DNA of 20,341 bases, taken from a virus. Below are positions 248 through 20,341 of the stretch, in pieces. The first letter of the stretch is position 1. Every line of letters starts with the position of its first letter. Location of the stretch: positions 1 through 20,341 of the IMG/VR virus record IMGVR_UViG_3300049098_000197, one strand, 5' to 3'. Under the pieces are notes generated by a model, which made no database searches, was not told the origin of the DNA, and was given only the letters and a program-made list of their open reading frames with translations. A program made the position numbers and the translations under genes.

Positions 248-2509
248 ATGGATGGAATGACAACCGGACAGACTATTGGAACAATTGCTGGTGGAGTCAT
301 TGGTGGAGCTATTGGTGGTTTTCCTGGGGCTATGATTGGTATGGCTGTTGGTGGTCAGCTTGGTTTGTGGATTGATCCTCCTTCTGCCCCTCCCCCTCCA
401 GGTATGGGAGATCTTGGAGCAAATTCTTATGTAAAATCTACCCCAGTACCTTTAGCTTTTGGTCAGGTAAAAGCTTTTGGTGGAGTTATTTGGATAGGGG
501 ATTTAGAAACAGGTATGAATAATGAGGGGTCGAGAAAAAATCCAGAATGGACTCCTGAGATGGATGCTGATTTTGCTGTTTGTCATTGTGAAGGGCCAAT
601 TACTTCTTATTTAAAATATTGGGTAAATGATCAAAAAATTGGAGATTTGGAAGATGGATGGAATATAGATTTTACTTCTTATCTTGGAACATCAAATCAA
701 AGTATAGATCCAACAATATCTTCTTATCAATCTGGAAAAACTGCTGAAGCAATTAATCTTAAATATTCAGCTTATACCGTAGTTGATTTGCATGTTGAAG
801 ACGCTGTTCTTTCAAAATTACCTTCTATTTCTGCTGAAATAAAAGCTTTTATGATAGAGTCTGGAGAAGAAGATGCTAATCCAATTCGTTGTGTCTATGA
901 ATTTTTAACTGATACAAGATGGGGAATAGGATTAGATACTGATTTATTCAATGGAGATCCAGATACAGCAGATAGTCCTTGGAAAATAGCATCAGATTAT
1001 TGTGATGAATCAGTTCAATTTACTGATTGGGATGATTCACTTTCAAATGAACCCCGATTTAGATATTCAAATATTTTTGATGCGAGAGCAGCAGCTTTTG
1101 ATATTATCACAGATATGATGCTAACTTGCAGAGGTCTTGTTCGTTTAAAACAAGGATTGATTGAACCCCTTATAGAAAATGCAGATGAAACTCCTGAATT
1201 ATATTATTCTGATCGAGTGAAAGGTGAGTTTGTAGCTGGTGGATCAAGTACCGTGAGTAGATTGTATGCTGATTTTTCAGCTTATCCTGATATATTTTGG
1301 TTTGGTGATGAGGGCAAAATAACCATATCGGGATCTAATTACACATTTATAGTTAAGGATCAAACATCGACTTATATTGATTTATTTGATGATCTTCCTG
1401 TATCACCAAATGCCAGTGATCCTTTTGAAATAGTAAAAGATAATATTAAAGAAGGATCATTTAATTTTAGGGAAAATAAAGATTCTGAAATCCCGAATAA
1501 ATTTAGAGTTGAATATGTACAAAGAGCAGTTAAAGATGAAAATGATAATTGGTCAAATGAATATATTTGGGATGCCGTAGAAAAAGATGCTGAAGAATAT
1601 TATTCAAAGTTTGCTGTGTATGGTGATGCCTCTTGGCCTACAGAACAAACTAAATTAAAAACAGTTAGATTAGGAGGAATAAAAAGAAAATCGCAAGCAA
1701 TGCGAATGGTTCAGTTTTATAGTGACTTTGCTTTATATAATAGATACTGGTGTGAATATGTAACAGGTTTGCAGGGGTATTATCATGCCATAGGAGATAT
1801 TATAGGTATAAGTCATATTCAAACTGGATGGGATAAAAAATCTTTTAGAATTGTGGGTATGGAAGAATTAGAAAATGACGAAGTTAAATTAACTTGTTTT
1901 GAATATAATTCTAATTGTTATAGTGATAATATTTCTAAAGTAATATCGTCAAGTGATAATAGTCTTCCGACTCCATATGAAGCTCCTGATGATGTTGAGC
2001 GTCTTTATGCTGTCCAAGATCTTTCTGAAAATAAAATTTATATTCTTTTTAAACGACCAGATGACAATCCCTATTTTATTGGAGCGCAAATTTATGTGAG
2101 TATAAATGGAGGAGATTATCAATGGATCAAAGAAGTCACATATATAACTCCTTCCGTAAAACTTGATGCAGGAATTAATGATTCGCAAACCACTATTGGA
2201 TATGACAATTCCACATTGTATGGATCTTTTCCATCTTCCGGTTCCTTTTGGATTGAAGATGAATTGATTACCTATACAGGGATTTCCGGTGATCCTGATT
2301 ATGAATTTACAGGATGTGGTAGAGGAATCAGTCCGGTTGCTCATACAATAGATAAATACTGCATGTTAAAAGATGCCTATACTGATTTTATTACTTTTGA
2401 AGATGCTAATATTGGTCAAACGTGGACAATAAAGGCAGTGGCGACTACACTTTATAATTTGAAATCAGATTTTGCTACTTCCCCAACTAAGGCAGTTACT
2501 ATATCATGA
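248..2509 (+). CDS. Tail hub / tip protein, short paralogue (753 aa)
   Basis: This is probably a central tail hub or tip attachment protein of the kind that follows NlpC/P60 proteins in siphophages. Residues 11-40 are a glycine-zipper-like hydrophobic segment (GGVIGGAIGGFPG and following), then a proline-rich linker and the hub-like segment TPVPLAFGQVKAFGGVIW. At about 333-395 there is a small beta module starting YADFSAYPD, and from about 401 a segment with KEGSFNF and PNKFRVEY, typical of the region before the C-terminal half in hub proteins. The last 170 residues look like a fibronectin-like region. AAGGAG at 236-241 supports ATG 248; a second in-frame ATG at 257 is possible. The end overlaps the next gene as ATGA, suggesting translational coupling. 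Most of its length aligns by eye with the next protein. I see no TIM-barrel glycosidase signature. Confidence 0.75.
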   Translation: MDGMTTGQTIGTIAGGVIGGAIGGFPGAMIGMAVGGQLGLWIDPPSAPPPPGMGDLGANSYVKSTPVPLAFGQVKAFGGVIWIGDLETGMNNEGSRKNPEWTPEMDADFAVCHCEGPITSYLKYWVNDQKIGDLEDGWNIDFTSYLGTSNQSIDPTISSYQSGKTAEAINLKYSAYTVVDLHVEDAVLSKLPSISAEIKAFMIESGEEDANPIRCVYEFLTDTRWGIGLDTDLFNGDPDTADSPWKIASDYCDESVQFTDWDDSLSNEPRFRYSNIFDARAAAFDIITDMMLTCRGLVRLKQGLIEPLIENADETPELYYSDRVKGEFVAGGSSTVSRLYADFSAYPDIFWFGDEGKITISGSNYTFIVKDQTSTYIDLFDDLPVSPNASDPFEIVKDNIKEGSFNFRENKDSEIPNKFRVEYVQRAVKDENDNWSNEYIWDAVEKDAEEYYSKFAVYGDASWPTEQTKLKTVRLGGIKRKSQAMRMVQFYSDFALYNRYWCEYVTGLQGYYHAIGDIIGISHIQTGWDKKSFRIVGMEELENDEVKLTCFEYNSNCYSDNISKVISSSDNSLPTPYEAPDDVERLYAVQDLSENKIYILFKRPDDNPYFIGAQIYVSINGGDYQWIKEVTYITPSVKLDAGINDSQTTIGYDNSTLYGSFPSSGSFWIEDELITYTGISGDPDYEFTGCGRGISPVAHTIDKYCMLKDAYTDFITFEDANIGQTWTIKAVATTLYNLKSDFATSPTKAVTIS

Positions 2510-5500
2510 CTAATATGGACATAGAAAAAACTTATAAGGATTTCAAAGGAAATCCGCAGCAAAGAAAACATCTTATTGCTTCTGGTGTAGGTGCTGTTAT
2601 TGGTGGATATATTGGTGGATACCCTGGAATGCAAATAGGCATGGCAATTGGGGGTTATTTATTTAAACCAGATTCACCGAATAAAAAATCTTATACTAAT
2701 CCTGATTATAAAACAAGTAAATCAAGGTTAGATCCAGTACCCGTAATAATTGGTACAGATATATGTCCTGGGAAAGTAATTTGGTTTAATAAAAATACAT
2801 TTGGAGTTTATGATTCAGGACATTTACCAAGTATGGAGGGTGCGCCACATGAAAGTAAGTGGAAAGAATTCATTGATCAATTAGCAGATAAAAAAGTAGC
2901 CTATTGGACTGAATATGCTGTTAATTTTAGTGGTAATGGTCATGTAGGAGTAATTAAATTTAATGGTAAACCATTTTGGTTTTGGCTTATATTTAGTGAC
3001 CTATGGGAAAATTATGATGATGCTTTAGATCCCTATCCTCCTTTAACAGTTTTTGATGCCTCACGAACGGAACATTTTACACATATTGATATAGAAGATT
3101 TAATTGGTCAAGATGCTACTTATAATAGAATAATGTATTTCAAAGGATTTTTTGCTGATTTTAGTGCTGCATCTGTTGCACCGGAAACTTCTAATTATAC
3201 CATTGATATGAATCTTCTTCAGGATATTAAACCGGAGATTCTTCCAGCGCCATTATCTTCCATGCCTATTTTTACTGCTGAAGTAAATTCAGATCGTGTT
3301 TGGTTGAGTCCTGAATCAAGGCAAGGTGGAAGTGGTATGGACTCTACTACTGGAAAACATTATTTTGAACCTGATCCTGAAGTAGGGGGGCTTTCCTGGT
3401 ATACATTAGGAATAGATCGGTATTGGAGTTGTCGGGATGCAAAAAATACTAAATTTGTAGGAATGGCTAATGGGGATTATGCCCCAATTTATATGGAGGG
3501 CAGTGATCGCAATTGGACGTATGCAGGAAATGATGCAACGTTACCAGAAATAGGAGACCCTTCATCAGCTATTCAAAATTGGTTTAAAGCAAATATATGT
3601 CCAGACATTAATTATAGTGAATTTGGTCATACAAGATCTCCAGCATTTTTACAAGCTACAGATGTCAATGATAATCGAGTTTATATTTGCGTTCATAGAC
3701 ATTGGTGGAATCCTAATCAGGGTAGAGGTGTCTATGGATTAGATAAATGGGATCATCATCATGCAGAGTATGGTGTTGAATTTGATATTTTTTATTTTGA
3801 TAGGAGTGATCCTGATTACAAAGTACATTCTCTTATTTATAATCAAAGATATAATTTACCAGATCCAGAAGGAGGAATTACTGCTGATGCCCCTGCCAAT
3901 CCTGCAATTGAATTAGGTAGTATGGTAGTATCTGAGAATCATATTTATCTATTTGGTAGTAGAGTTCAAACTGATGTTTTATTAAGTGATTACAGGACAA
4001 TTGAAAGTGGTGATAACTCTTATACAAAAATATATGCTGACTTTTCACAATATCCTGATGGATGGTGGGAGGGAAAATATGCTGCATTAGGTCAAAATAC
4101 TTATAAAATTTGGAGAGAAATAACTGAACAAACCAGTACCTACATAGTGGTAGCCAAAGAATTTGCAGCATTGCCCACTGCTGGAGAAGTAGTTCAACTT
4201 TGTAAATATCCTAAATGGGTTGCTGATTGGGGAATAGTTGGAGAGGGCAGCACAACCACAAAATTAATTTGTAATTCTCCAACGTGGAATTCTGATGGAT
4301 GGCTTGATAGTTCCTATAGTGGTCATACCTATTGGGATAAAGTTTTTTTTATAGGTCAATGGTTGTATGGTGTTGGGGCTTCTAATCCTGGGGATGGAAC
4401 AGAAATAAATTTATCATCTCCATTAGATAGAGAACCAATTCCAGGTGAACGAATTTGTTTTACAATGAATTCATCAAATGATTTTGATGAAAACGATACT
4501 AATCCTAATTTTAGTTCTGACTATGCAGGAATATTTTTTGATGACTTGGGATTTGATAACCCTACAAAAGCTGATTTGGGAAATTTAAATGCAAGTCGTA
4601 TAAGTGATAATGAGTTTAATCGATCTCACCATGTTTGTTTAAAAATAGATAAAAGTACTGGAGCAATAGAAAAACATGATACCCAAAGAGTGACTACTCC
4701 CACCTATTATGTTGGCCCACTTCTTACTTGGACAGGTGGTGTAGTGGTGTATGCTTGTGCAACCGATGTGCAGGCTTTTGTTTATTCTCATGAATCTCAG
4801 TATGGTACTCAAATGGCAGTTTATTCTTATCTGCTTGATTTTGATGATAGTGAAATTCATGAACAGATTCATCGTAGAAATGAATATTCAGGTGGTCATT
4901 CTGCTGCATGGTGTTATATGGGTTGTGTTTCGGCAAAAGAATGGAATAATGAATTAAATCAATATGTGGATGTCTGGTATACTGTTCTCAGGGTTTATGA
5001 TAGTTATGGAGAAATGAATGATGCTGTAGATCCAGGTACATTTCTTTTAAGATTAAATCAAGGAAGATTTTCAAATAAACAGGTATGGTCAGATGTTATA
5101 AATCAGTATCATGGTCTTGATCTTGATGGCGATCATAGAGGTATTGATACAATATTATTTCGTAAACATATAGCTACTGGCCCATTGTATAGTGATGCCT
5201 ATCTAACTTCTTTTCCAGATGAAAATAATTATCAAATTGGTAAATTTGGAATTACTGAAGATATTTATTTTGAGGTAGATAGAAATGGTGCTGGTACAAG
5301 GGAACAGTGGCGATTTACAATTCCTACTGAAAATAATAAGGCAGGGGAATTATATTGCATTGCTAAAAGTGATTTAGAAGATTCGGATAATAATGATCTT
5401 GATTTTCAGTGGTTAGAACTTCATGATTGGAGTAATTATAAACAATGCAGATATGGCTGGTATGCAAGTACTTTAACACAATGGAATTCTGGTCACTGGT

Positions 5501-7995
5501 ATCAATGTGATGAAAGTCCTGCATCAGTTGTTGCTGGTACTTCATGGTCAGATGATAATGGTTTATGGAGAGATCATTTTGGTCATCCATATGTAACAGA
5601 TTCATTTGAAATGCATTTTGATGAAGCAACTGATATTTGTAATGAAATAATTGATGCAACAATATATACTCTTAAAGAAGAAATTAATATAAGAGAACGG
5701 AGATTTCAATTTTCTCAATGTTATGATCAACCAAAAAAAATGCATGATGTAATACAAGAAGTTTTAGATACTTGTCAGGGTTTTATATCTCCATGTAGAC
5801 AAAGAAATTATTACAATATTCTTACTAATGAGATTGTTGATCCAGAGGAATATGAATCATGGGAATATTTTTCTAAAGTAAGAAATTTTAAATTAATAGT
5901 TCCACATCCTAATGAAATTCCCGTACTTTATTTTGGATTAGATTCAGCAGTGTTTGTTAGTACTCAGTTGTCAGATGAAAACAATCTTATATATGGTGAT
6001 TTTTCAGCTTATCCCGATAATTATTGGAAAGGAGATTTTGTTTATTACGGTGAAACAAAAGATCATGGAAGTCCAGGTGACGGAGATCATCCTTCAAGGT
6101 ATAGAAATTGGGATGTTATAATTAAACAAACTTCTACTTATATAAAAATAGGTGAGGGTATTCCTCTTTTTCCAGCTTCAGAATCGTTTACATTAAAAAA
6201 AGATAATATGAAAGAGGGTAGTTTTACCTTTGCTGAAAAATCAGAAATGGATCGTCCTAATAAAGTTAGGATAGAATTTAAAAATAGGTTATTAGGTTAT
6301 ATAAAAGATGTTGCTGAAGCTGAAGATACCTATCGATTAGACATATTAGGTGAATCTGAAAAAATTGATTTTTATAAAATGCATGGAATTAAACGGGCCA
6401 CTCAAGCAGGACGAATGGCAATGAGAATTCTTGATCAATGGAATTATCAAAAATATGTCTGTGCATTTGAAACTGATTTAGTAGGGATGACCCTTTGTAT
6501 GGGTGATATAATCGGAGTCAGCCACGCTATTACCGGATGGAATGGTAAATGGTTTAGAATAGTAGCAATGGATGAGTTAATGGATTTTGAAGTTAAATTG
6601 GAATTAGAAGAATTCAATCCTTATTGCTATCATGATTATGGTGTTCCTGTATATAACGGTTATCCTTATAGTGGTTTTCCTACACCTTATATACCAAGAA
6701 ACGTTGAACGATTTGAGGTAAAAGAGGATATAGAATTTAATCGGTTATATTTTACCTTTAAAGCTCCTGCAAGGGATGCTGGATATTTCACCGGAGCAAG
6801 AATATACCGAAAAAAAGATGATGGCACTTGGGAATTTATTGCTGTCATATATGAAACGGTGTCCTCTGTTAAATTAGCTCAAAGTGTTGGATTAAATGAT
6901 ACCACGATTTATTATGATAATGATTATATGTCAGGCTCATTTCCCTCTCAGGGGGTTATTTGGGTTGAAGATGAGTTGATGTATTACCACGGCATTGATA
7001 CTACCAATTATGCATTTACAAATGTTGTGAGAGGATATAAGGATACCGAACAGGTAGAGCATTTAATTGATGATGAAACGAATCTTTATATTAAATTAAG
7101 AGATGATGCTAATTTATATTATGAAATACCGGAATCCTGGGCAGGAACGACACAAACTTTTAAAGCGTCATCTGTTACGGTTCACAATTTGACCATTGAT
7201 CTTAATTCTTCCCCATCGTTTACCATTGATATAGTTGGTTATGGGGTACTGCCTTACTTTCCTGAATCAATTCAAAACGCATTGCCTGGAACTGAAAATA
7301 TATTTGAAACTCTTGGATTGGAGGAGGTCACAAAAGAACTTTCGATTGAAGAAGTAATTGAAATTCTTGGTTTAGGTACTTCAGAAACAATTACCGAAAC
7401 ATTAACCTTTTTAATTGAATCTCTTGGCTTGGGCGATAGTTTAAAGGATGTATCTATAATTAATATCGTAGAATCTCTTGGATTAGGAGATGTTAAGTAT
7501 CAACCGGACTATGTTCGTATGATTGAAGCTATTGGTTTGGGTGATTCAAAAACAGTTATTGAAACCTTGGCTCATTTAACTGAAACCCTTGGTTTAGGAG
7601 ATTTTGTTGAAATTATAGAAGTAATTACTGAAACCCTTGGTTTGGGTGATTCAAATATAATCGTTGAAACATTGGCCCAATTGGTTGAAGCTATTGGATT
7701 GGGTGATTTAAAAGTTGTCACTGAAACATGGACTCAATTTACTGAAACTCTTGGCCTTGGTGATAGTAATTATGTATTAACTGAAGAATCGATTACTGAG
7801 ACTCTTGGCATGGGTGATGTTACAGTAGTGGATATAATAGAGTACCTTGTAGAATCCCTTGGTTTAGGTGATTCAAAGGTGGTCACTGAGACATTAGCCC
7901 AAATATTTGAATCTCTTGGTTTGGGTGAATCAACTGAAGATTTATCTGAGAGTGAAGATGCTGCTATGATGATCTTAAATAATAATATGTTATAG
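2506..7995 (+). CDS. Giant tail hub / tip protein with central insert and LGLGD repeat tail (1829 aa)
   Basis: This is a paralogue of the preceding hub protein. The N-terminus (about 25-55) again has a glycine-zipper segment (GVGAVIGGYIGGYPG), followed by DPVPVIIGTDICPGKVIWF, matching the first hub. The two align again from about residue 1050 (RRFQFSQCYD against PRFRYSNIFD) to about 1580, including the modules YGDFSAYPD (about 1160), KEGSFTF and PNKVRIEF (from about 1235), and CMGDIIGVSHAITGW. Between about 250 and 1000 lies an insert absent from the shorter hub; it is rich in aromatic residues and short beta-strand-like segments and includes another YADFSQYPD module near 509. Residues 1601-1808 hold twelve repeats around E-T/S-L-G-L-G-D, spaced 16-19 residues. 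The ATG overlaps the upstream TGA (ATGA); another in-frame ATG lies at 2515. It probably forms an extended tail tip or central fibre. The function of the insert and repeats is unknown. Confidence 0.72.
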   Translation: MTNMDIEKTYKDFKGNPQQRKHLIASGVGAVIGGYIGGYPGMQIGMAIGGYLFKPDSPNKKSYTNPDYKTSKSRLDPVPVIIGTDICPGKVIWFNKNTFGVYDSGHLPSMEGAPHESKWKEFIDQLADKKVAYWTEYAVNFSGNGHVGVIKFNGKPFWFWLIFSDLWENYDDALDPYPPLTVFDASRTEHFTHIDIEDLIGQDATYNRIMYFKGFFADFSAASVAPETSNYTIDMNLLQDIKPEILPAPLSSMPIFTAEVNSDRVWLSPESRQGGSGMDSTTGKHYFEPDPEVGGLSWYTLGIDRYWSCRDAKNTKFVGMANGDYAPIYMEGSDRNWTYAGNDATLPEIGDPSSAIQNWFKANICPDINYSEFGHTRSPAFLQATDVNDNRVYICVHRHWWNPNQGRGVYGLDKWDHHHAEYGVEFDIFYFDRSDPDYKVHSLIYNQRYNLPDPEGGITADAPANPAIELGSMVVSENHIYLFGSRVQTDVLLSDYRTIESGDNSYTKIYADFSQYPDGWWEGKYAALGQNTYKIWREITEQTSTYIVVAKEFAALPTAGEVVQLCKYPKWVADWGIVGEGSTTTKLICNSPTWNSDGWLDSSYSGHTYWDKVFFIGQWLYGVGASNPGDGTEINLSSPLDREPIPGERICFTMNSSNDFDENDTNPNFSSDYAGIFFDDLGFDNPTKADLGNLNASRISDNEFNRSHHVCLKIDKSTGAIEKHDTQRVTTPTYYVGPLLTWTGGVVVYACATDVQAFVYSHESQYGTQMAVYSYLLDFDDSEIHEQIHRRNEYSGGHSAAWCYMGCVSAKEWNNELNQYVDVWYTVLRVYDSYGEMNDAVDPGTFLLRLNQGRFSNKQVWSDVINQYHGLDLDGDHRGIDTILFRKHIATGPLYSDAYLTSFPDENNYQIGKFGITEDIYFEVDRNGAGTREQWRFTIPTENNKAGELYCIAKSDLEDSDNNDLDFQWLELHDWSNYKQCRYGWYASTLTQWNSGHWYQCDESPASVVAGTSWSDDNGLWRDHFGHPYVTDSFEMHFDEATDICNEIIDATIYTLKEEINIRERRFQFSQCYDQPKKMHDVIQEVLDTCQGFISPCRQRNYYNILTNEIVDPEEYESWEYFSKVRNFKLIVPHPNEIPVLYFGLDSAVFVSTQLSDENNLIYGDFSAYPDNYWKGDFVYYGETKDHGSPGDGDHPSRYRNWDVIIKQTSTYIKIGEGIPLFPASESFTLKKDNMKEGSFTFAEKSEMDRPNKVRIEFKNRLLGYIKDVAEAEDTYRLDILGESEKIDFYKMHGIKRATQAGRMAMRILDQWNYQKYVCAFETDLVGMTLCMGDIIGVSHAITGWNGKWFRIVAMDELMDFEVKLELEEFNPYCYHDYGVPVYNGYPYSGFPTPYIPRNVERFEVKEDIEFNRLYFTFKAPARDAGYFTGARIYRKKDDGTWEFIAVIYETVSSVKLAQSVGLNDTTIYYDNDYMSGSFPSQGVIWVEDELMYYHGIDTTNYAFTNVVRGYKDTEQVEHLIDDETNLYIKLRDDANLYYEIPESWAGTTQTFKASSVTVHNLTIDLNSSPSFTIDIVGYGVLPYFPESIQNALPGTENIFETLGLEEVTKELSIEEVIEILGLGTSETITETLTFLIESLGLGDSLKDVSIINIVESLGLGDVKYQPDYVRMIEAIGLGDSKTVIETLAHLTETLGLGDFVEIIEVITETLGLGDSNIIVETLAQLVEAIGLGDLKVVTETWTQFTETLGLGDSNYVLTEESITETLGMGDVTVVDIIEYLVESLGLGDSKVVTETLAQIFESLGLGESTEDLSESEDAAMMILNNNML
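7306..7929 (+). repeat. Twelve-copy LGLGD protein repeat array at the hub C-terminus
   Basis: Twelve copies of an approximately 18-residue unit with core E-[TSA]-[LI]-G-[LM]-G-D start at codons 1601, 1619, 1638, 1656, 1674, 1693, 1709, 1728, 1747, 1765, 1783 and 1802. The first is degenerate (ETLGLEE), the second ends in GT and the last in GE. The spacer often contains a second ET (for example VVTETLAQIF). Codons for the core vary between copies (ttg, tta or ctt for Leu; ggt, gga or ggc for Gly), so these are diverged repeats rather than a recent slippage product. Function unknown. Confidence 0.9.
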
Positions 7996-8004
7996 GATAA
8001 TAAA

Positions 8005-8778
8005 ATGACTAATTGGCAGATTGGTAAACCTGCAATATTAAAAAATAATGGATGGGCTACACAAGTTACTCCATCAGGATCAAATCATACTAAAGGTTCA
8101 TGGGCGACAGCAGCATCTTCTATTGGATATGATATATCAGGATTTCTTTTTTGTTCTACTAATCCGTGGTCAGGCCAACGTCTTATGACAGATTTAGCCA
8201 TTGGAGATGCTTCTAATAAATATATATTAGTTGATAATCTTATAAATAATTATAATAGTACTTATACTCAAAGAAATGAGACAACTCATTGGGTTCCTAT
8301 GAGGATTGCAGCAGGGAGTAATATTTATTTAAGAGGGCAATCAAGTGTAGGAGGAGATTATTATAGAGCAACTATAATTCCTTATGGGGGAAATTTTCAT
8401 GGATCTGGATTTGGCAGAAGTATTGTATTAGGAGATAATACTGGAGATACTGGAGGTCAAGCCCTTACAACATCCTATGTAGAATTGACTTCTTCTCTTT
8501 CGTTTGCGGTGAAAATGATGTATGTTTCAATAATTCATTTAACTTATCCTTCAACTTATGGAGAGGGTTGGGTTTATGTAGCTGTAGGATCTTCAGGAAA
8601 TGAAGTACCTATATATTCAAGGAGAATAACTGGTCATAATTCTTCTGTTTGTGTTTGGGGGCATCCTGATAGTCATGCATTACCTGTAAATATAGCTCAA
8701 GGAAGTAGAGTATCAATTAAAGTAACTGATTCTGATGCAAATAATAAAATAGATGGTATTGTTTATTGTTATGGATAG
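8005..8778 (+). CDS. Virion-type protein with an internally duplicated beta domain (257 aa)
   Basis: I do not recognise a named family, but the protein seems to be built from two copies of a domain of roughly 110 residues. The first half has LAIGDASNKYILVDNL, then HWVPMRIAAGSNIYLRG and IIPYG; the second has VAVGSSGNEVPIYSRR, then HALPVNIAQGSRVSIKV and IVYCYG, in the same order and spacing. The alternating hydrophobic pattern suggests beta-sandwich or jelly-roll domains, common in phage tail-tip decoration or fibre proteins. Only a weak AGGAT precedes the ATG, 9 bases after the hub stop. It lies between the two genes that carry LGLGD repeats. A structural role is inferred from context. Confidence 0.6.
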   Translation: MTNWQIGKPAILKNNGWATQVTPSGSNHTKGSWATAASSIGYDISGFLFCSTNPWSGQRLMTDLAIGDASNKYILVDNLINNYNSTYTQRNETTHWVPMRIAAGSNIYLRGQSSVGGDYYRATIIPYGGNFHGSGFGRSIVLGDNTGDTGGQALTTSYVELTSSLSFAVKMMYVSIIHLTYPSTYGEGWVYVAVGSSGNEVPIYSRRITGHNSSVCVWGHPDSHALPVNIAQGSRVSIKVTDSDANNKIDGIVYCYG

Positions 8779-8789
8779 GAGATTAAAAA

Positions 8790-9116
8790 ATGGCAGTAAC
8801 AAGTGTAGGATCAGGAAGTCAGTCAGCCACTTTAGATACTGAACATACCTTAGATACGGAGACAACCGCAGGGGTCTATGTTCTGGTGGTTGATATGAAT
8901 AATTTGGCAGATGGAGATGTAGTCATATTGAGAATTAAAACAAAAGCTAAAACAGGATCTACTTCCAGACTTGCTTATCAATCTACTTTTTCCAATGCAC
9001 AGACTGAGGTAAATAAATATTCTCCAGCAATACCTGTTGATACTGAGATTATTTGCACTTTGGAACAAACCGATGGTACAGGCCGATCATTTGATTGGAA
9101 TCTTTTAAAGATGTGA
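8790..9116 (+). CDS. Small phage virion-type protein (108 aa)
   Basis: The 108-residue protein looks like a small single-domain beta protein: an SQSATLDTEHTLDTET start, a strand-rich centre VYVLVVDMNNLADGDVVILR, and an end DGTGRSFDWNLLKM. Similar short proteins (a GVYVLVVD-like strand, a GD-x-x-x-x-RI strand, and a Gly-x-x-x-x-F-x-W end) recur as hypothetical proteins in tail regions of environmental phages; this is recollection of a pattern, not a search. The upstream TAG stop overlaps the Shine-Dalgarno AGGAG (8777-8781), so translation is probably coupled to the previous gene. No membrane segment or catalytic motif is visible. It is probably a minor structural protein. Confidence 0.6.
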   Translation: MAVTSVGSGSQSATLDTEHTLDTETTAGVYVLVVDMNNLADGDVVILRIKTKAKTGSTSRLAYQSTFSNAQTEVNKYSPAIPVDTEIICTLEQTDGTGRSFDWNLLKM

Positions 9117-9120
9117 TGCT

Positions 9121-9867
9121 ATGAAGGTATTAAAATTTACAGGTGGTGGTACAGGCCCACCGGAAATAGAATACTTAGAAGAAACAATGGGATTAGGAGA
9201 TACTTATTCTTTAGGATTTATTGGTCTTGAAGAATTTGATGAAACCATTGGTTTTAATGATAGCATGTATACGATAGTTGAAATGTATCTTACTGAATCT
9301 CTTGGATTGGGAGATACCCCTGCTGAATTAGTATCCATTACCGAAACGATGGGTTTGGGAGATGTGGTCTATCAATATGATTATACCCATATAATCGAAA
9401 CTCTTGGTTTGGGTGATGAATTAACTAATACAATGGACATATATGTAGAAGTAGATGAATCCCTTGGATTAGGTGATGGAGGATTTGGTTATTTAGAAAT
9501 TAATTATAATTTAAGATGGAGAACCCGAACAAAAAAATTAAATTATGGTTTTGGAACTGCTCCTTTTGGTGATGTTGTTTCCTACGGAGATGGAGATGTA
9601 ATCGATGAGCTTAAAGAATTTAAGGTAAAGGTGATTCGATTATCTGATGAAACTGTTTTGAGAACAGCTACTATTACCATTGCCAATAAACAATTTCCTG
9701 ATGGATCTGCTCAATATGTTTATACGAGTGCAATGAACATATCCGATAATACTACCTTTGATCCTAATTTAAGATTTGAAGTTTATCAAGTTGATGTAAA
9801 CGATGTGTGGTCTCCAGCTAAATACTTAGATATAACAGTTACCAATGAAGGAGGAGATTTTGTATAA
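9121..9867 (+). CDS. LGLGD-repeat tail protein with fibronectin-III-like end (248 aa)
   Basis: Residues 21-119 carry six copies of the same repeat as the giant hub (ETMGLGD, ETIGFND, ESLGLGD, ETMGLGD, ETLGLGD, ESLGLGD, starting at residues 21, 41, 59, 75, 93 and 113). The second half (about 125-245) is a beta-rich domain with LRWRTRTKKLNYGFG, TATITIANKQFPDGSAQYVY and LRFEVYQVDVNDVWSPAKYL; the last resembles the final strands of fibronectin-III-like domains at the C-terminus of phage hub proteins. The gene begins 4 bases after the previous stop with no clear Shine-Dalgarno, so translation is likely coupled. An alternative ATG at 9116 is out of frame. It is probably a tail-tip protein working near the giant hub; its partner is unknown. 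Confidence 0.65.
   Translation: MKVLKFTGGGTGPPEIEYLEETMGLGDTYSLGFIGLEEFDETIGFNDSMYTIVEMYLTESLGLGDTPAELVSITETMGLGDVVYQYDYTHIIETLGLGDELTNTMDIYVEVDESLGLGDGGFGYLEINYNLRWRTRTKKLNYGFGTAPFGDVVSYGDGDVIDELKEFKVKVIRLSDETVLRTATITIANKQFPDGSAQYVYTSAMNISDNTTFDPNLRFEVYQVDVNDVWSPAKYLDITVTNEGGDFV
9181..9477 (+). repeat. Six-copy LGLGD protein repeat array
   Basis: Six units with the E-[TS]-[LMI]-G-[LF]-[GN]-D core are spaced 20, 18, 16, 18 and 20 residues apart, at the N-terminus of the 248-aa protein. The second copy (ETIGFND) is diverged. It is the same motif family as the array at the end of the giant hub gene, 1.25 kb upstream, but with no long DNA identity, so the relationship is seen at protein level. 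Confidence 0.9.
9848..9856 (+). promoter_or_regulatory. Strong ribosome binding site for the 83-aa protein
   Basis: AAGGAGGAG lies 10 bases before ATG 9867, inside the end of the upstream gene. It is the longest Shine-Dalgarno match I noticed, and the start also overlaps the upstream stop as TAATG. Both suggest high expression of the small protein that follows. Confidence 0.8.
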
Positions 9868-13589: not shown

Positions 13590-14474
13590 ATGGATATAAT
13601 ATTTAAGCAATGGCAAGCACCTGGAGATCTTTTGATGTTGACCTGTGCTATTAGAGATCTTCATAAGATGTACCCTGGAAAAATGAAAACTGATGTTCTT
13701 TGTTGTTATCCAGAAGTATTTTTTAATAACCCTTATATTACTTATTTTCCTAAAGATGGTAGTGTTCCTATTGTTGATTTAAAATATGATAAGGCAAGAG
13801 ATAAACTTGCTCCTCTTGGTTATCATTTTTCATCTGTGTTTATTTATATTCTCAATGAGATGTATGATCTTAAATTAATGAAAACATCGATGCGACCAGA
13901 TATATATTTAACTGAAGATGAAAAATTAGATAGAATTTTAGAAAAACTTGAAATAGAAAAACCTTATTGGTTAATTAATACTGGAGTAAAACAAGATATT
14001 CCAGTTAAAGGTTATCCTCCTTGTGGTTGGCAAAAAGTAATTGATGCTTTGGTTGATAAAGGGATAAAGCTTTATCAAGTTGGTAGTCGTGATGATATAC
14101 ATCCTACACACAGCAGAATTAAATCTTTGGTAGGAAAAACAGAAAATTTAAGAGATTATTTTTCGTTGGTATATCATTCACATGGATGTATTGGTCATGT
14201 GTCTATGCAAATGCACCTTGCTGCTGCTTTTGGTAAACCATGTGTAGTAGTTGCTGGAGGACGTGAAGATAGTCGATGGGAGCATTATCCAGGTCATAGG
14301 TTTTTACATACTGTAGGATTGTTGGATTGTTGCAAGGAGACAGGATGTTGGATTTCCAAAATAGAGGATTGTAAATATCCTTGGAAAGATACACCATATC
14401 CGTTATGCCTTGCTATGATTAAGCCTGAATTAATTATAGATGAAGTTTTGAATTATAATAAATTCATGCTATAA
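13590..14474 (+). CDS. Family 9 (heptosyltransferase-like) glycosyltransferase with cysteine-rich end (294 aa)
   Basis: The N-terminus QAPGDLLMLTCAIRDLHKMY matches the GDxLxxT/P start of GT-B family 9 enzymes, which move a sugar from a nucleotide donor, classically ADP-heptose, to an acceptor. The second Rossmann half shows YHSHGCIGHVSMQMHLAAAF then GKPCVVVAGGREDSRWEHYPG, equivalent to the conserved H-x-A-A-A-x-G-K-P region that contacts the donor. At 294 residues it is compact for the family. Five cysteines (247, 248, 253, 261, 273) lie in the last 50 residues and could bind a metal, as does the iron finger of protein-modifying O-heptosyltransferases; this is inference. It starts 4 bases after the collar-propeller gene (AAGGA at 13573-13577), so it is co-expressed with fibre genes and may glycosylate a virion protein. 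Changing host surface sugars is the alternative. Confidence 0.75.
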   Translation: MDIIFKQWQAPGDLLMLTCAIRDLHKMYPGKMKTDVLCCYPEVFFNNPYITYFPKDGSVPIVDLKYDKARDKLAPLGYHFSSVFIYILNEMYDLKLMKTSMRPDIYLTEDEKLDRILEKLEIEKPYWLINTGVKQDIPVKGYPPCGWQKVIDALVDKGIKLYQVGSRDDIHPTHSRIKSLVGKTENLRDYFSLVYHSHGCIGHVSMQMHLAAAFGKPCVVVAGGREDSRWEHYPGHRFLHTVGLLDCCKETGCWISKIEDCKYPWKDTPYPLCLAMIKPELIIDEVLNYNKFML

Positions 14475-15342: not shown

Positions 15343-15379
15343 TAATAATTGATTAGGAGATAAGAAAATGGCTCTTTTA
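15343..15379 (+). repeat. 37-bp direct repeat, copy 1 (translation start of lectin-like gene A)
   Basis: A 37-base stretch identical to 16373-16409. It covers the ribosome binding site (AGGAG at 15355-15359), the ATG and the first four codons of lectin-like gene A. It begins just after the upstream stop. Confidence 0.95.
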
Positions 15380-16375
15380 TTTATGGATGGTTTTGATCAC
15401 TATACAGTAAATCAAAGACCTGATAAAAAATGGACAGGTTCTTCATTTATCACTATAAGTTCTTCATACGCAAGATTTAGTGGTCAAGGACTTTTTATTA
15501 CCAGTGGTGGTTATGCCCAACTTTGTGATATTGGAGTAAATAAATCAACAATATATTTTGGTATGGCAGTAAAAAAAATAAGTGGAGGAAATCCGGCAGT
15601 ATCTACTTCATATCCGCTTTTGATGTTTTTAGATGAATCAGGAGTAAATCAAGTATTACTTTGTGTAAATTCTGCTTATGGTATTGTTGCATATGATGGA
15701 TCACCTTCTTTGCTTGGTTCTTCATCTGATGGTGTTATCCCTGATCAAAAATGGTTTTATCTTGAAGTTAAAGTAACCATTAGTGCCACTGTTGGAGAAG
15801 TAACGGCAAGAGTAAATGAAACCCAAGTTTTAAATTTAACTTCTCAAGATACCAAAAATGGATCAGATTATATAAGACAATTTAGAATAACTGCTATTAA
15901 TATGAATCTTGATACAAATTTTGATGATATTTATATCGATGACGCTCAATTTCACGGTGATTGCAGGATCAGGACTTTTATGCCTGATTCAATATCAGGA
16001 ACCAACAATGACTTTACGGCATCTGCTGGAAATAAAGATGAATGTGTCGATGAAGCACAGAGTAATGAAGATACTGATTATATAACTTCAGACACAGTAA
16101 ACAATAAACAGACTTTTGGTATCACAACCGGAGCATTAGGAACGGTTATTGGCATCCAATTAAATAATCATTGCAAATTGGATGAAGCAGGAACCAGAAA
16201 AATTACTCCTTTAATTCGATCCAATTCAACTAATTATTCGGGAACCGAAACAGATCAAATTCCTGCCGATTATAATTTTGAATCAGAAATATTTGAAGAT
16301 GACCCTGATGATTCAAATCCCTGGACTCAGACTAAGTTAGAAGCAGCAGAGTTTGGTTTGGAAATTACTACCTAA
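15368..16375 (+). CDS. Lectin/LamG-like attachment protein A (335 aa)
   Basis: First of four related proteins. Residues 1-190 form a concanavalin/LamG-like jelly roll: the start MALLFMDGFDHYT, then KKWTGSSFITISS, STIYFGMAVKKISG, DQKWFYLEVKVTIS and NETQVLNLTSQDT, ending with DDIYIDDAQFHGDCR at about 186-200. Residues 200-335 are a second, strongly conserved domain (NDFTASAGNKDECVDE, TLGTVIGIQ-like ALGTVIGIQLNN, AGTRKITPLIRSNST, EAAEFGLEIT). This two-part layout is common in phage tail or decoration proteins; the N-terminal half probably binds sugar and the C-terminal half probably anchors or multimerises. Gene B follows after 22 bases and shares DNA repeats at both ends, pointing to tandem duplication. 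Function is inferred from fold-like patterns. Confidence 0.68.
   Translation: MALLFMDGFDHYTVNQRPDKKWTGSSFITISSSYARFSGQGLFITSGGYAQLCDIGVNKSTIYFGMAVKKISGGNPAVSTSYPLLMFLDESGVNQVLLCVNSAYGIVAYDGSPSLLGSSSDGVIPDQKWFYLEVKVTISATVGEVTARVNETQVLNLTSQDTKNGSDYIRQFRITAINMNLDTNFDDIYIDDAQFHGDCRIRTFMPDSISGTNNDFTASAGNKDECVDEAQSNEDTDYITSDTVNNKQTFGITTGALGTVIGIQLNNHCKLDEAGTRKITPLIRSNSTNYSGTETDQIPADYNFESEIFEDDPDDSNPWTQTKLEAAEFGLEITT
16307..16362 (+). repeat. 56-bp direct repeat, copy 1 (3' end of lectin-like gene A)
   Basis: A 56-base stretch identical to 17349-17404, encoding the last part of the conserved C-terminal domain (DDSNPWTQTKLEAAEFGLE). Flanking sequence is clearly less similar, so identity is concentrated here. 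Confidence 0.95.
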
Positions 16376-16409
16376 TAATTGATTAGGAGATAAGAAAATG
16401 GCTCTTTTA
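16373..16409 (+). repeat. 37-bp direct repeat, copy 2 (translation start of lectin-like gene B)
   Basis: Identical to 15343-15379. This copy also contains the TAA stop of gene A (16373-16375), AGGAG at 16385-16389 and the first four codons of gene B. Confidence 0.95.
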
Positions 16410-17417
16410 CTTATAGAAGGTTTCGATCATTTTACGTCTGATGCTCATTTAGAAGATAAAGGATGGGATATTGGATCAGGAAGTGGGTTTATTACCGTTG
16501 GTTCTGCTTATGGAAGATTTGGTGGAAATGGGGTAAAGGTAATAAATAGTGTTTGTTATCTTAGAAAAAATATTGGATCAGATGAATCTACTATTTATTT
16601 TGGAGTAGCAATCAAAATAGATGTAGGAACTCCTGGTGGGTATTATGCTGTTCATGGTGGATTTATTGAATTACGGGATGAAGCCAATACAATTCAAGTA
16701 CGTTTTTATATTGGTTCTGATTATAAAATTTTAGCTTATCAAGGAGATGGAACTTTGCTTGGTACTGCTACTGTTGCTTGTCCTTTTCAAAAATGGTTTT
16801 ATTTGGAAGGAAAAATAGTAATTCATGCTACAACTGGAGCAGTAGAGTTAAAAATGAATGGAACACAAGTTTTGAATCTTACTTCTCAAGATACAAAAAA
16901 TGGAACTGATTATATACGTTATATTCAGTTTGGATCTATATATGATGACATAGATACTCTCTTTGATGATGTGTATGTGGATGATGCTGCCTATCATGGA
17001 GATTGTCGGGTAAAAGTTTTTCTTCCTGATGATGTCTCTACAACTAATAATAGTTTTACAGCTTCAGCAGGAAACAAAGATGAGTGCGTAGATGATAATC
17101 CACCGACTGATGATACTGACTATATATATTCTGACACATTAAATCATAAACAGGGTTTTGGTATAACCACTGGATCATTAGGTACAGTTATTGGTATCCA
17201 ATTAAATAATTTTTGTCGGATTGATGAAGCAGGAACCAGAAAGATTACTCCTTTGATTCGATCTAATTCCACTGATTATCAAGGTACAGAAACAGATATA
17301 ATTACTGCTGACTATAAATTTGAATCAGAAGTTTTTGAAGATGATCCCGATGATTCAAATCCCTGGACTCAGACTAAGTTAGAAGCAGCAGAGTTTGGTT
17401 TGGAGATAACCACATAG
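16398..17417 (+). CDS. Lectin/LamG-like attachment protein B (339 aa)
   Basis: Closest relative of protein A. The N-terminal jelly-roll-like part keeps the scaffold (MALLLIEGFDHFT, STIYFGVAIKIDVG, FQKWFYLEGKIVIHA, QVLNLTSQDTKNGTDYIRY) but has different loops, including the Gly/Tyr-rich GTPGGYYAVHGG. The C-terminal domain (about 200-339) is very similar to that of A: SAGNKDECVDD, GITTGSLGTVIGIQLNN, DEAGTRKITPLIRSNST, and the same last 20 residues. A variable binding half joined to a conserved anchor half fits receptor-binding diversification. The TAG stop overlaps the Shine-Dalgarno (AGGAG 17416-17420) of the next gene. Sugar binding is inferred; no ligand-contact residues can be assigned. Confidence 0.68.
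   Translation: MALLLIEGFDHFTSDAHLEDKGWDIGSGSGFITVGSAYGRFGGNGVKVINSVCYLRKNIGSDESTIYFGVAIKIDVGTPGGYYAVHGGFIELRDEANTIQVRFYIGSDYKILAYQGDGTLLGTATVACPFQKWFYLEGKIVIHATTGAVELKMNGTQVLNLTSQDTKNGTDYIRYIQFGSIYDDIDTLFDDVYVDDAAYHGDCRVKVFLPDDVSTTNNSFTASAGNKDECVDDNPPTDDTDYIYSDTLNHKQGFGITTGSLGTVIGIQLNNFCRIDEAGTRKITPLIRSNSTDYQGTETDIITADYKFESEVFEDDPDDSNPWTQTKLEAAEFGLEITT
17349..17404 (+). repeat. 56-bp direct repeat, copy 2 (3' end of lectin-like gene B)
   Basis: Identical to 16307-16362. After it the two genes differ in synonymous positions and in stop codon (TAA in A, TAG in B). Confidence 0.95.
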
Positions 17418-17428
17418 GAGATTAAACA

Positions 17429-18307
17429 ATGGCACTTAGAAATACGCAGGTTGCAGTTGAGGTACTTGAAACTGAATCTGATCCTAATCTTAGAAATACG
17501 CAGGTTGCAGTTGAGGTACTTGAAACTGAATCAAATCCAAATTTGAGAAATACTCAAATTGCTGTTGAAGTATTAGAAGTAACTAATTTGATGCAGGTTG
17601 CACAGCAATTTGTTCAAATAATTTCTAATAATGATCCTACCAATTCAATTCAAGTAGCTCAACAATTTGTTCAGATCATATCTAAAAATCCTATTGCAGC
17701 AAATACTTTTGAAGGAGATGATGGTGATCCTCCTGATAATTCTATTTGGTCTGTACAGGCAGGTACTCCAGAAATTCAATCTAATGAATTAGAATTTCTT
17801 GTCAATAGTGGTAGTACTTTGGATAAGGTAAAACTGAAAAAAGTGGTAGGTGGAGATTTTGCAAGTTATGCTGAGATAGATGTTTCTGAAAACTATGATC
17901 AGGATAATTGGAAATTTGGTGTTAGAACAGATCTTAATTCGGGATCTTATTTTGAAATTAATAGAGAATATGACAATGTGAATGGTAATAATTTCGTTGT
18001 CAGAACAGCAGATGGTGGATCAGAAACCGTTTACAGAACTTCAACTTCAATCACTGATACCAAATTAAAGGTAACTAAAAGTGGTAATACTTTTAGAGGA
18101 TGGTATTGGGATGGAGATCAATTTGTTCAAGTAGGGTCAGATGAAACATTGGGCTTAACTGCTGATGAGTTTTGGACTTATATGGTTGCTGAAACCAAAA
18201 ACAATGAAGCTCAATTAAAAGTCTTGGTAAGTAAGTTTACTGTTTTATCTGGATATTTTGCCGATGCTTTTTTGCAAAATGTTTATCTTACTATTATTGA
18301 GGGATAA
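17429..18307 (+). CDS. Tandem-repeat protein with C-terminal jelly-roll domain (292 aa)
   Basis: The N-terminus is made of short repeats: three 18-residue units (LRNTQVAVEVLETESDPN and variants) and two 19-residue units (QVAQQFVQIISNN and variants). Phage proteins with N-terminal R-x-T-Q-x-A-V-E-V-L type strands are familiar from tail regions; their role is not established as far as I know. From about residue 95 there is a LamG/concanavalin-like domain: EGDDGDPPDNSIWSVQAG, SGSTLDKVKLKKVVGGDFAS, YAEIDVS, YFEINREYDN, TKLKVTKSGNTFRGWYWDGD and AQLKVLVSKF. Its jelly roll differs from that of the flanking lectin-like proteins and it lacks their C-terminal domain. The start has AGGAG at 17416-17420. 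It is probably another virion attachment or decoration protein. Confidence 0.65.
   Translation: MALRNTQVAVEVLETESDPNLRNTQVAVEVLETESNPNLRNTQIAVEVLEVTNLMQVAQQFVQIISNNDPTNSIQVAQQFVQIISKNPIAANTFEGDDGDPPDNSIWSVQAGTPEIQSNELEFLVNSGSTLDKVKLKKVVGGDFASYAEIDVSENYDQDNWKFGVRTDLNSGSYFEINREYDNVNGNNFVVRTADGGSETVYRTSTSITDTKLKVTKSGNTFRGWYWDGDQFVQVGSDETLGLTADEFWTYMVAETKNNEAQLKVLVSKFTVLSGYFADAFLQNVYLTIIEG
17435..17590 (+). repeat. Three 54-bp (18-aa) tandem repeats
   Basis: Units begin at 17435, 17489 and 17543. The first 44 bases of units 1 and 2 are identical (17435-17478 and 17489-17532); unit 3 is diverged at many synonymous sites. The unit encodes LRNTQVAVEVLETES plus a D/N-P-N turn. Copies 1 and 2 are therefore a recent duplication or have been homogenised. 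Confidence 0.92.
17591..17704 (+). repeat. Two 57-bp (19-aa) tandem repeats
   Basis: Units begin at 17591 (MQVAQQFVQIISNNDPTNS) and 17648 (IQVAQQFVQIISKNP and following). The first 12 residues after the initial position are the same, but codons differ, so they are older than the 44-base identity just upstream. They look like a diverged form of the preceding strand repeat. Confidence 0.85.
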
Positions 18308-18312
18308 ATAAA

Positions 18313-19356
18313 ATGACACTTAAATTTATAGATGGTTTTGAAGGCTATACTGACATTGATGATTTAACAAAGGTATTTTTAGGATCAACTGATTCCAGTG
18401 GTTATTTTAGTTTTCCAACAGGGAGAAGGGCAGGAACTAAATGTTTAAATTGGAATTCTTCAGGAGGTAGTAGTGGCCTTTTAAAAATTCCTATAGCAAA
18501 TGGTGCTTTTATTGCTGATGAAGAAGTCATATTTGGTTTTTCTTTTAAAGTTTCAGCTTATGGTCTTTCTTATAAAGTTGAATTTGATTTTGTTAGTTCT
18601 GGTCAGGGAGGAGTACGTTTACAATTTGTCAATGGTGGTAATATTATTAAATTATATAGATCTCACATTGCTTTTTATGAAGTAGGTAGTTTTAACTATG
18701 AAGTTGATACGTGGTATTATATTGAAGTAAAATGTAAAATAGCAAAACCTGGAGGCTATATTATAGCTCATTTAAATGAACAGGAAGTGCTTAATTATAC
18801 AGGTGATACTATGTGGAGTGGTGCTACTTCATTTAGTCGTGTAGAGGGTCGGTTTGGTGATAATTGGAATATATTAATAGATGATTTTTATATTGCTGGA
18901 AGTGAGGGCGTAAATAATAATGATTTCCTGGGAGATGTAAGAATTGATTCCATTAATCCCAATGGTGCAGGAAACTATACTGATTTGACTCCTTCTGCTG
19001 GATCTAATTATCAATGTGTTGATGAAGTTGTAATAGATGAATCAGATTATGTTGAGGGGATTGACCCTGGAGATAAAGATTCATACTCCTATCCAGATGT
19101 GCCTACCGATCTTGATGATGCAGATATTAAAGGAATATTTTTAAGAAATATATCACAACGAACAGCACCAGCAGATAATATAAAAATTGATTCTTTTATA
19201 AGAACGGGATCAACTGATTATAATGCTTCTGCTGATTTATCATTACAAGATGTTTGGGCAAGTAAAGATTTTATATTTGAAAAAGATCCTTCTGATTCGG
19301 GTGATTGGACTAAAGCAAAAATCAATGCCTGTGAATTCGGTATGGAGGTAGCATAA
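18313..19356 (+). CDS. Lectin/LamG-like attachment protein C (347 aa)
   Basis: Third member of the family, in a separate subgroup with the next gene. The N-terminal jelly roll starts MTLKFIDGFEGYTDIDDL and includes DEEVIFGFSFKVSAYG, VDTWYYIEVKCKIAKPG, HLNEQEVLNYTGD and NILIDDFYIAGSEG. The C-terminal domain begins at about 202 with NNDFLGDVRIDSINPNGAGN, then YTDLTPSAGSNYQCVDE, VPTDLDDADIKGIFLRN, FIRTGSTDYN and ends INACEFGMEVA. The final A/C-E-F-G-x-E motif is shared with proteins A and B, so the C-terminal domain is homologous across all four. GAGGGA at 18299-18304 serves the ATG, and the TAA overlaps the next ATG (TAATG). It is probably a receptor-binding or decoration protein; the ligand is unknown. 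Confidence 0.67.
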   Translation: MTLKFIDGFEGYTDIDDLTKVFLGSTDSSGYFSFPTGRRAGTKCLNWNSSGGSSGLLKIPIANGAFIADEEVIFGFSFKVSAYGLSYKVEFDFVSSGQGGVRLQFVNGGNIIKLYRSHIAFYEVGSFNYEVDTWYYIEVKCKIAKPGGYIIAHLNEQEVLNYTGDTMWSGATSFSRVEGRFGDNWNILIDDFYIAGSEGVNNNDFLGDVRIDSINPNGAGNYTDLTPSAGSNYQCVDEVVIDESDYVEGIDPGDKDSYSYPDVPTDLDDADIKGIFLRNISQRTAPADNIKIDSFIRTGSTDYNASADLSLQDVWASKDFIFEKDPSDSGDWTKAKINACEFGMEVA

Positions 19357-20341
19357 TGACTCTTTTAAAATTTGATGGTTTTGAGGGATATTCAAGTCCT
19401 TGGGATGCTGAAAATGCTAATGGTATTATAGGAGATCTTTCAGGAAATGTTTGGAGTTATGAAACTGGAAGAAATGGTGGAAAATGCATAAGATTTAATG
19501 CTAGTAATCTTTATCGTGGAATTATTACTTTAAACTTTCCTTCAATAGATAATAGTCGTGTAGGAATTTTAGGTGTTGCTGTAAATCATCATTATTTTTT
19601 TAGAAGTACAACTTCTGTTTATCCTTCTATTGGGTTTGGTGCTGATAATAGTTCCCGTTTTGTAGCTTATTTAGATGATTCTGGATTACTTACCTTTGGT
19701 ACTTGGAATGGTTATCTTATGGATTATGGTACAGTTCAGCTTAAACTTGATCAGTGGTATTATATGGAAGTTAAATATAAATGTCATGATACTACTGGAA
19801 TATCTCAATTTAGATTAGATGAACAATTAATTTATAATTTTTCTGGAGATACAAAAAACACGAGTACAGGAAATACAGATTTAGATTATGGTCATTTAAT
19901 ATCAGGGTATTATTGGAATCATAATTTACAATGGGTAGAATTTGATGATGTATATATTGCTGATGATCAAGGAACAGAGAATAATGATTTCTTAGGAGAC
20001 ATAAGAATTGATGCTGTTCATCCAAATGGAGCAGGTAACTATGCTCAAATGACACCTTCAGCAGGAAATAATTATGAATGTGTCGATGAAGAAGCAATGA
20101 ATGAAGCTGATTATGTTGAAGGAGCTAATATAGCAGAAAAAGATTCATATACCTATGGGAGTGTGCCTACCGATCTTGACGATGCAGCTATTTTTGGTTT
20201 ACAAATAAGAAATCATTGTAGAAGAACAGCACCATCTAATAATATAAAAATTAATCCTTTCATAAGAACCGGATCAACTGATTACAGTCAAACAACATTG
20301 GATTTAAGTGATTCATTTAGAGAATCACAGGGAGATATAAT
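19356..20341 (+). CDS. Lectin/LamG-like attachment protein D (3' truncated, 328 residues visible)
   Basis: Fourth member, running off the window end with the frame still open. It starts MTLLKFDGFEGYSSPWD with GGAGG at 19344-19348 and overlaps the TAA of gene C. Strand-like segments match C: RVGILGVAVNHHYFF, LKLDQWYYMEVKYKCHD, LDEQLIYNFSGDTKN and VEFDDVYIADDQGTE. From about 208 the conserved C-terminal domain follows (NNDFLGDIRIDAVHPNGAGN, MTPSAGNNYECVDEE, VPTDLDDAAIFGLQIRNHC, FIRTGSTDYS). Only about 20-25 residues are expected to be missing, judging by C. Its jelly-roll loops differ from those of C, again a variable front on a conserved rear. Confidence 0.67.
   Translation, partial: MTLLKFDGFEGYSSPWDAENANGIIGDLSGNVWSYETGRNGGKCIRFNASNLYRGIITLNFPSIDNSRVGILGVAVNHHYFFRSTTSVYPSIGFGADNSSRFVAYLDDSGLLTFGTWNGYLMDYGTVQLKLDQWYYMEVKYKCHDTTGISQFRLDEQLIYNFSGDTKNTSTGNTDLDYGHLISGYYWNHNLQWVEFDDVYIADDQGTENNDFLGDIRIDAVHPNGAGNYAQMTPSAGNNYECVDEEAMNEADYVEGANIAEKDSYTYGSVPTDLDDAAIFGLQIRNHCRRTAPSNNIKINPFIRTGSTDYSQTTLDLSDSFRESQGDI

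Follow-up and report, generated by a model that had tools for sequence, protein, structure and literature searches.

A shared LGLGD-type repeat in a J-like tail-tip hub and a small downstream protein of a little-known phage family

The window studied here (the whole stretch of DNA that was analysed, a virus record of 20,341 bases) encodes a J-like tail-tip hub that ends in an array of a short repeat, and a small protein, encoded downstream, that begins with an array of the same repeat. Judged from their sequences, the two arrays have a common origin. The locus is a new variant of the J-type tail tip, and the window is a member of a little-known phage family. We favour, with a probability of about one half, the reading in which the repeats serve the tail tip as a modular element of its shaft, in a split-gpJ layout. 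Most of the tail-tip diversity of environmental phages lacks annotation, and the presence of one repeat in both a J-like hub and a separately encoded tip protein offers a tag by which paired components of the tip can be recognized in sequences. The arrays are also a testable case of how shaft lengthening and the exchange of receptor-binding parts might proceed independently of each other in phages.

One repeat family in two proteins

The features of the locus are listed in Table 1. The hub array consists of 12 units (residues 1603-1808) spaced by 16-19 aa, and the small-protein array of 6 units (residues 23-119) spaced by 16-20 aa. The unit counts, the period of 16-20 residues and the presence of two genes between the hub and the small gene, all claimed in an earlier note on this DNA, are therefore borne out in the window ORFs. 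The first two hub units and the last one are degenerate (LGLEE, LGLGT and LGLGE). The strict LGLGD motif occurs six times in the hub and three times in the small protein, versus 0.007 and 0.003 expected from shuffled proteins, which makes it about a thousand times more common than in such proteins, and no [LIM]GLGD was found outside both arrays in the six frames of the window. An HMM built from the hub units only matched the small protein (E 1.8e-17, 6 domains), and an HMM built from the small-protein units only matched the hub (E 4.3e-27, 12 domains), compared with a best E of 0.19 among 787 background ORFs. This indicates that both arrays belong to one repeat family, as had been proposed.

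Table 1. Features of the J-like tail-tip locus in the window
Feature	Position	Strand	Description
J1, 753 aa, tandem paralogue of the hub	248..2509	+	reaches only to the start of the hub array
J-like tail-tip hub, 1829 aa	2506..7995	+	phrog_1101, phrog_31, Phage-tail_3, J1 similarity
Hub array, 12 units	7312..7929	+	consensus h-x(3)-h-x(2)-h-x-E-[TS]-L-G-L-G-D, period 16-19 aa
Hub C-terminal peptide MMILNNNML and stop	7966..7995	+	from the comparison of nine genomes
MTNW-type gene, 257 aa, slot member	8005..8778	+	window protein 23-31% identical to relatives
MAVTS-type gene, 108 aa, slot member	8790..9116	+	window protein 71-92% identical to relatives
Small protein, 248 aa	9121..9867	+	conserved MKVLKF start, 6 units, beta-rich C-domain
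Small-protein array, 6 units	9187..9477	+	same count in all nine genomes
Small-protein C-terminal domain	9481..9864	+	predicted Ig/Fn3-like beta sandwich; 71-99% identity to window copy

Six other virus contigs carry both genes (L015, L017, L006, L008, L009 and L007), and two more are partial relatives, L010, with a hub cut at its start, and L079, with a small gene cut at its end; with the window, these form a set of nine genomes. Both arrays, whose pairing in neighbouring genes the earlier note had proposed to look for, occur together in these nine related contigs. The small gene lies downstream of the hub in all nine genomes covering that place, and its product contains 6 units in every one, followed by the conserved C-domain (partial in L079). 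For the small proteins of the window and L015, a regular expression prints 7 units by including IGLEE or IGFEE between units 1 and 2; the count of 6 is that of the alignment. The hub arrays comprise 12 units in the window and L015, about 10 in L079, 5-7 in L017, L007, L008 and L009, and a single unit in L010 and L006. In L006, the hub tail (L006:5802-6824) continues after its one unit with an unrelated TxLDAIL repeat that replaces the LGLGD array. The L008 hub has added LamG-like domains, and LLLESGxxLLLE-type repeats follow the array at the hub ends of L015, L017 and L008. No third array was present in records of 89 kb and 108 kb. A pattern scan of the genome collection gave low-complexity Gly-rich frames or chance matches and one true relative, L079, and no paper on an LGLSD repeat of phages turned up in a literature search. 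As a side observation, L079 (JAHWGK010000056.1), a close phage relative, is binned in the MAG of a Thermoplasmata archaeon; a class-wide host-link search in archaea gave a match in that MAG alone (1/80 genomes), and L079 is probably misbinned.

Units appear to move between the two genes. A unit of the type VxYQPDYxxxIE is found in both hub and small-protein arrays, and the copy in the hub of the window shares 89% DNA identity with that in the small protein of L079, versus a hub-small mean of 53%. Codon agreement at identical residues reaches 80% for this unit, as opposed to 58% among the remaining hub-small pairs, a difference that is only indicative because the pairs are not independent. At the level of sequence, at least one unit type (YQPDY) has been copied between the arrays. 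Moreover, two units of the L007 hub share 96% DNA identity, which points to a recent duplication inside the hub. Relatives therefore show the gain and loss of units, as well as their copying between hub and small gene.

When units are aligned on their core, the spacer is hydrophobic at positions -11, -7 and -4. Position -2, which lay outside the search motif, is Glu in 44 of the 44 distinct hub units and Glu or Asp in all 38 small-protein units. Helical periodicity peaks at 100 degrees, with z 9.2 for the hub and a weaker z 3.9 for the small protein, both values being inflated since the units are related. AlphaFold monomers from 9 sequences gave a mean pLDDT of 34.5 for the hub tail and about 27 for the small-protein array, and the array models are unusable; with such shallow alignments, low confidence is expected whether the arrays are ordered or not.

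The tail-tip setting

The hub is composed of a Gly-rich N-terminus, a long insertion, a J core extending to about residue 1576 and then the repeat array. It matches phrog_1101 (6e-19), phrog_31 (2e-10) and the Pfam family Phage-tail_3 (4e-8, over the Pfam cut-off), and thus has the J-type profile match by which gpJ / megatron proteins are recognized. The upstream paralogue J1 is 35% identical to the hub across the core, in an alignment that reaches hub residue 1576 and then stops. Since J1 ends just before the array start, the hub array is an addition to the J core. The window thus encodes two tandem J-like proteins (248-7995), the second with an insertion of about 900 aa between the Gly-rich N-terminus and the J core. 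Upstream of the J-like genes, L017 carries a Phage_BR0599/phiJL001 Gp84-type hub protein, an NlpC/P60-like protein and a tape-measure-like fragment (weak match), and the gene order read from these genes is that of a gpJ / megatron tail tip. Both array-bearing genes therefore sit within a tail-tip module, in agreement with the claim that they encode tail proteins. A tblastn search against named phages gave no match for the hub (E 1e-5) nor for the small protein or the hub array (E up to 1).

Other features of the window lie downstream of this module, where collar-domain, Asp-box and LamG-like proteins are encoded (the LamG-like label is our own reading of the sequence). A glycosyltransferase family 9 gene (13590-14474) stands within the tail gene cluster and is kept in relatives. 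Four paralogous-looking tail-region proteins (15368-20341) combine a short hydrophobic start with DGFD or DGFEG/EGFD, and both of the two that were scanned match phrog_2448. Finally, in the protein encoded at 17429-18307, an 18-aa unit (LRNTQVAVEVLETESNPN) is repeated about 2.6 times at the start, in near-identical copies.

The C-domain of the small protein was modelled by AlphaFold as a beta sandwich at residues ∼160-235, with pLDDT from about 70 up to about 80. Its best fold match in the PDB is the central fibre of lambda gpJ (8xck), a weak one (E 2e-3, TM 0.27). Relative to the query, no fold-search match exceeds TM 0.35, and many of these matches are collagen-like; they serve as leads only. 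With a TM of 0.27 for the best match, the predicted Ig/Fn3-like character of this domain is likewise a lead and not a result. No Ig/Fn3 sequence match was found for the C-domain, its matches in Pfam and PHROGs were at chance level, and a PDB sequence search with small-protein profiles gave no match. Among viral contigs, there were no distant C-domain relatives outside the window's own family.

The genes between the hub and the small gene constitute an exchangeable slot of 0-3 genes: three in L015, two in the window, L006, L009 and L010, one in L017 and L008, and none in L007 and L079. They are of three kinds, MADxKLTELTE, MTNW and MAVTS, and one of the MADxKLTELTE type has a tail-fibre PHROG match. 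The MTNW-type protein has no PHROG match, and its low identity among relatives (Table 1) suggests that this gene is fast-evolving. The hub C-terminal peptide MMILNNNML is present in the window, L006, L009, L010 and L015, exactly the five of nine genomes with both MTNW and MAVTS genes, and absent from the other four. This association persists in L015 despite another gene intervening, and the peptide may serve in docking or may mark a linked block, or a border, of recombination.

What the shared repeat may do

In the reading that we favour, a unit would consist of one short, amphipathic helix, with hydrophobic residues at -11, -7, -4 and 0, and a closing Gly-Leu-Gly-Asp turn. A segmented shaft of helices, bundled from three hub chains, would extend below the J core, where lambda gpJ has its alpha-helical shaft. 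Through its N-terminal repeats, the small protein would place a tip or receptor-binding domain of Ig/Fn3-like type at the end of the shaft or close to it. The layout would then be that of a gpJ with the tip as a separate gene, and the slot would be an exchangeable place for tail-fibre-like proteins. A long shaft made of the LGLGD repeat is not required, as the L010 hub has a single unit and the L006 hub carries unrelated repeats. A further proposal, in which a shared, interchangeable helical repeat joins a two-protein tail tip, the hub shaft varying in length as units come and go and bearing a separately encoded receptor-binding tip with the same repeats, so that tips and slot proteins could be swapped on an unchanged hub, is in our opinion unlikely.

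The constant co-occurrence of the two arrays, their membership of one family and the exchange of units between them would also be expected if the hub and the small protein bound each other through their shared repeats, by heterotypic pairing or co-bundling. The retention of at least one unit at the start of every hub tail is in line with such docking, as is the unrelated virus G090, in which several adjoining genes also share a lookalike array. However, the counts do not match: hubs have from 1 to 12 units against an invariable 6 in the small protein, and in L006 the hub keeps one unit before its foreign repeat and the small protein still has 6. Unequal counts argue against unit-by-unit docking, but not against docking by the first or a few units, or against contact as such; we regard a docking interface, which the earlier note had put forward, as a tentative alternative. 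If instead the arrays were disordered spacers without a specific partner, the very low AlphaFold confidence would be accounted for, but not the strict conservation of the core and of Glu at -2 in diverged units, nor the amphipathic periodicity, and we lend this idea little credence. The arrays might also act at the DNA level, recombination between related repeats swapping the slot genes, given that the variable part of the locus is precisely the slot between them, with its 0-3 genes of three kinds. This seems the least probable proposal: DNA identity between hub and small-protein units is mostly low (the mean of 53% given above), the slot borders (the MMILNNNML end and TTAAAGATGTGATGCT) lie outside the arrays, and the motif residues are kept as amino acids although codons differ, which indicates that selection acts on the protein.

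The earlier note had also suggested that one long protein was split by the insertion of the two genes. The two arrays are indeed nearly contiguous in L007, with a 4-base overlap of hub stop and small-gene start, and in L079, with a gap of 12 bases, no genes lying between; phages in which a gpJ-like spike is followed by an Ig-like ORF of its own have moreover been described (PMC12309495). However, in both genomes the hub and the small protein are separate ORFs and the MKVLKF start is conserved even in the absence of slot genes, so that the proposed splitting of one protein by the entry of these two genes fails. Moreover, TTAAAGATGTGATGCT (or a sequence near it), which elsewhere is the end of the MAVTS gene, is kept upstream of the small gene in L017 and L079, and such traces in slot-less or reduced genomes suggest that slot genes have been lost, and not that the slot was empty from the outset. 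Scans with the small protein and its C-domain gave no fused homologue, profile comparison of the C-domain with the hub tail revealed no resemblance, and the unit count is constant in one protein and variable in the other. An ancestral long protein whose split point was later entered by the slot genes is accordingly doubtful; an older split, or the spread of the array by duplication, is possible.

Comparison with known tail tips

E-x-L-G-L-x-D arrays are also found in DUF2341- and BNR-type tail-region proteins of the virus contigs G090, G091 and G092. In G090, three tail-region genes (L183, 3828-12853, minus strand) contain arrays, one of about 45 units, and one of the three genes encodes a protein of 278 aa in which an N-terminal array is followed by a C-domain. 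These arrays are like those of the window in their similar core, their period of 18-20 aa and their helical periodicity. However, they were not recovered by the HMMs of the window family (E 0.4-4.6, best E 0.4-1.5), and they are thus a resemblance, possibly by convergence, and no proof of function.

The RcGTA-like tail-tip module consists of a hub protein, an NlpC/P60 peptidase and the megatron. The order seen in L017 (BR0599/Gp84-type hub protein, NlpC/P60-like protein, J-like proteins) resembles this tail tip. Unlike RcGTA, the window family has two tandem J-like proteins and repeat arrays.

In lambda, gpJ is one chain with FNIII domains, an alpha-helical shaft, a beta prism/central straight fibre and an Ig-like RBD (PMC11101478, PDB 8xck). 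The window is similar in having a J-like hub in a tail-tip operon with a C-terminal extension past the hub core, a helical signature and a beta-sandwich-like tip domain. It differs in that a gene of its own encodes the presumed tip domain and in that the extension is an array of 16-20-aa repeats with variable copy number; the fold likeness is weak (TM 0.27). Another counterpart may be the layout proposed for Dhillonvirus JLBYU60, Traversvirus tv24B and Littlefixvirus (PMC12309495), with a separate downstream Ig-like ORF and, in the Dhillonvirus type, a spike whose end would be a knife-like domain and which would bind the Ig-like protein. As in this type, the gpJ-like spike of the window lacks a terminal Ig domain, and a short way downstream lies the gene of a small protein predicted to be beta-rich. 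In contrast, the two partners of the window share repeats, which the parts consulted of PMC12309495 do not note for its own pairs, and up to three other genes intervene in relatives of the window. The window fits a split-gpJ layout of this kind, with the repeat as a putative shaft element in both proteins.
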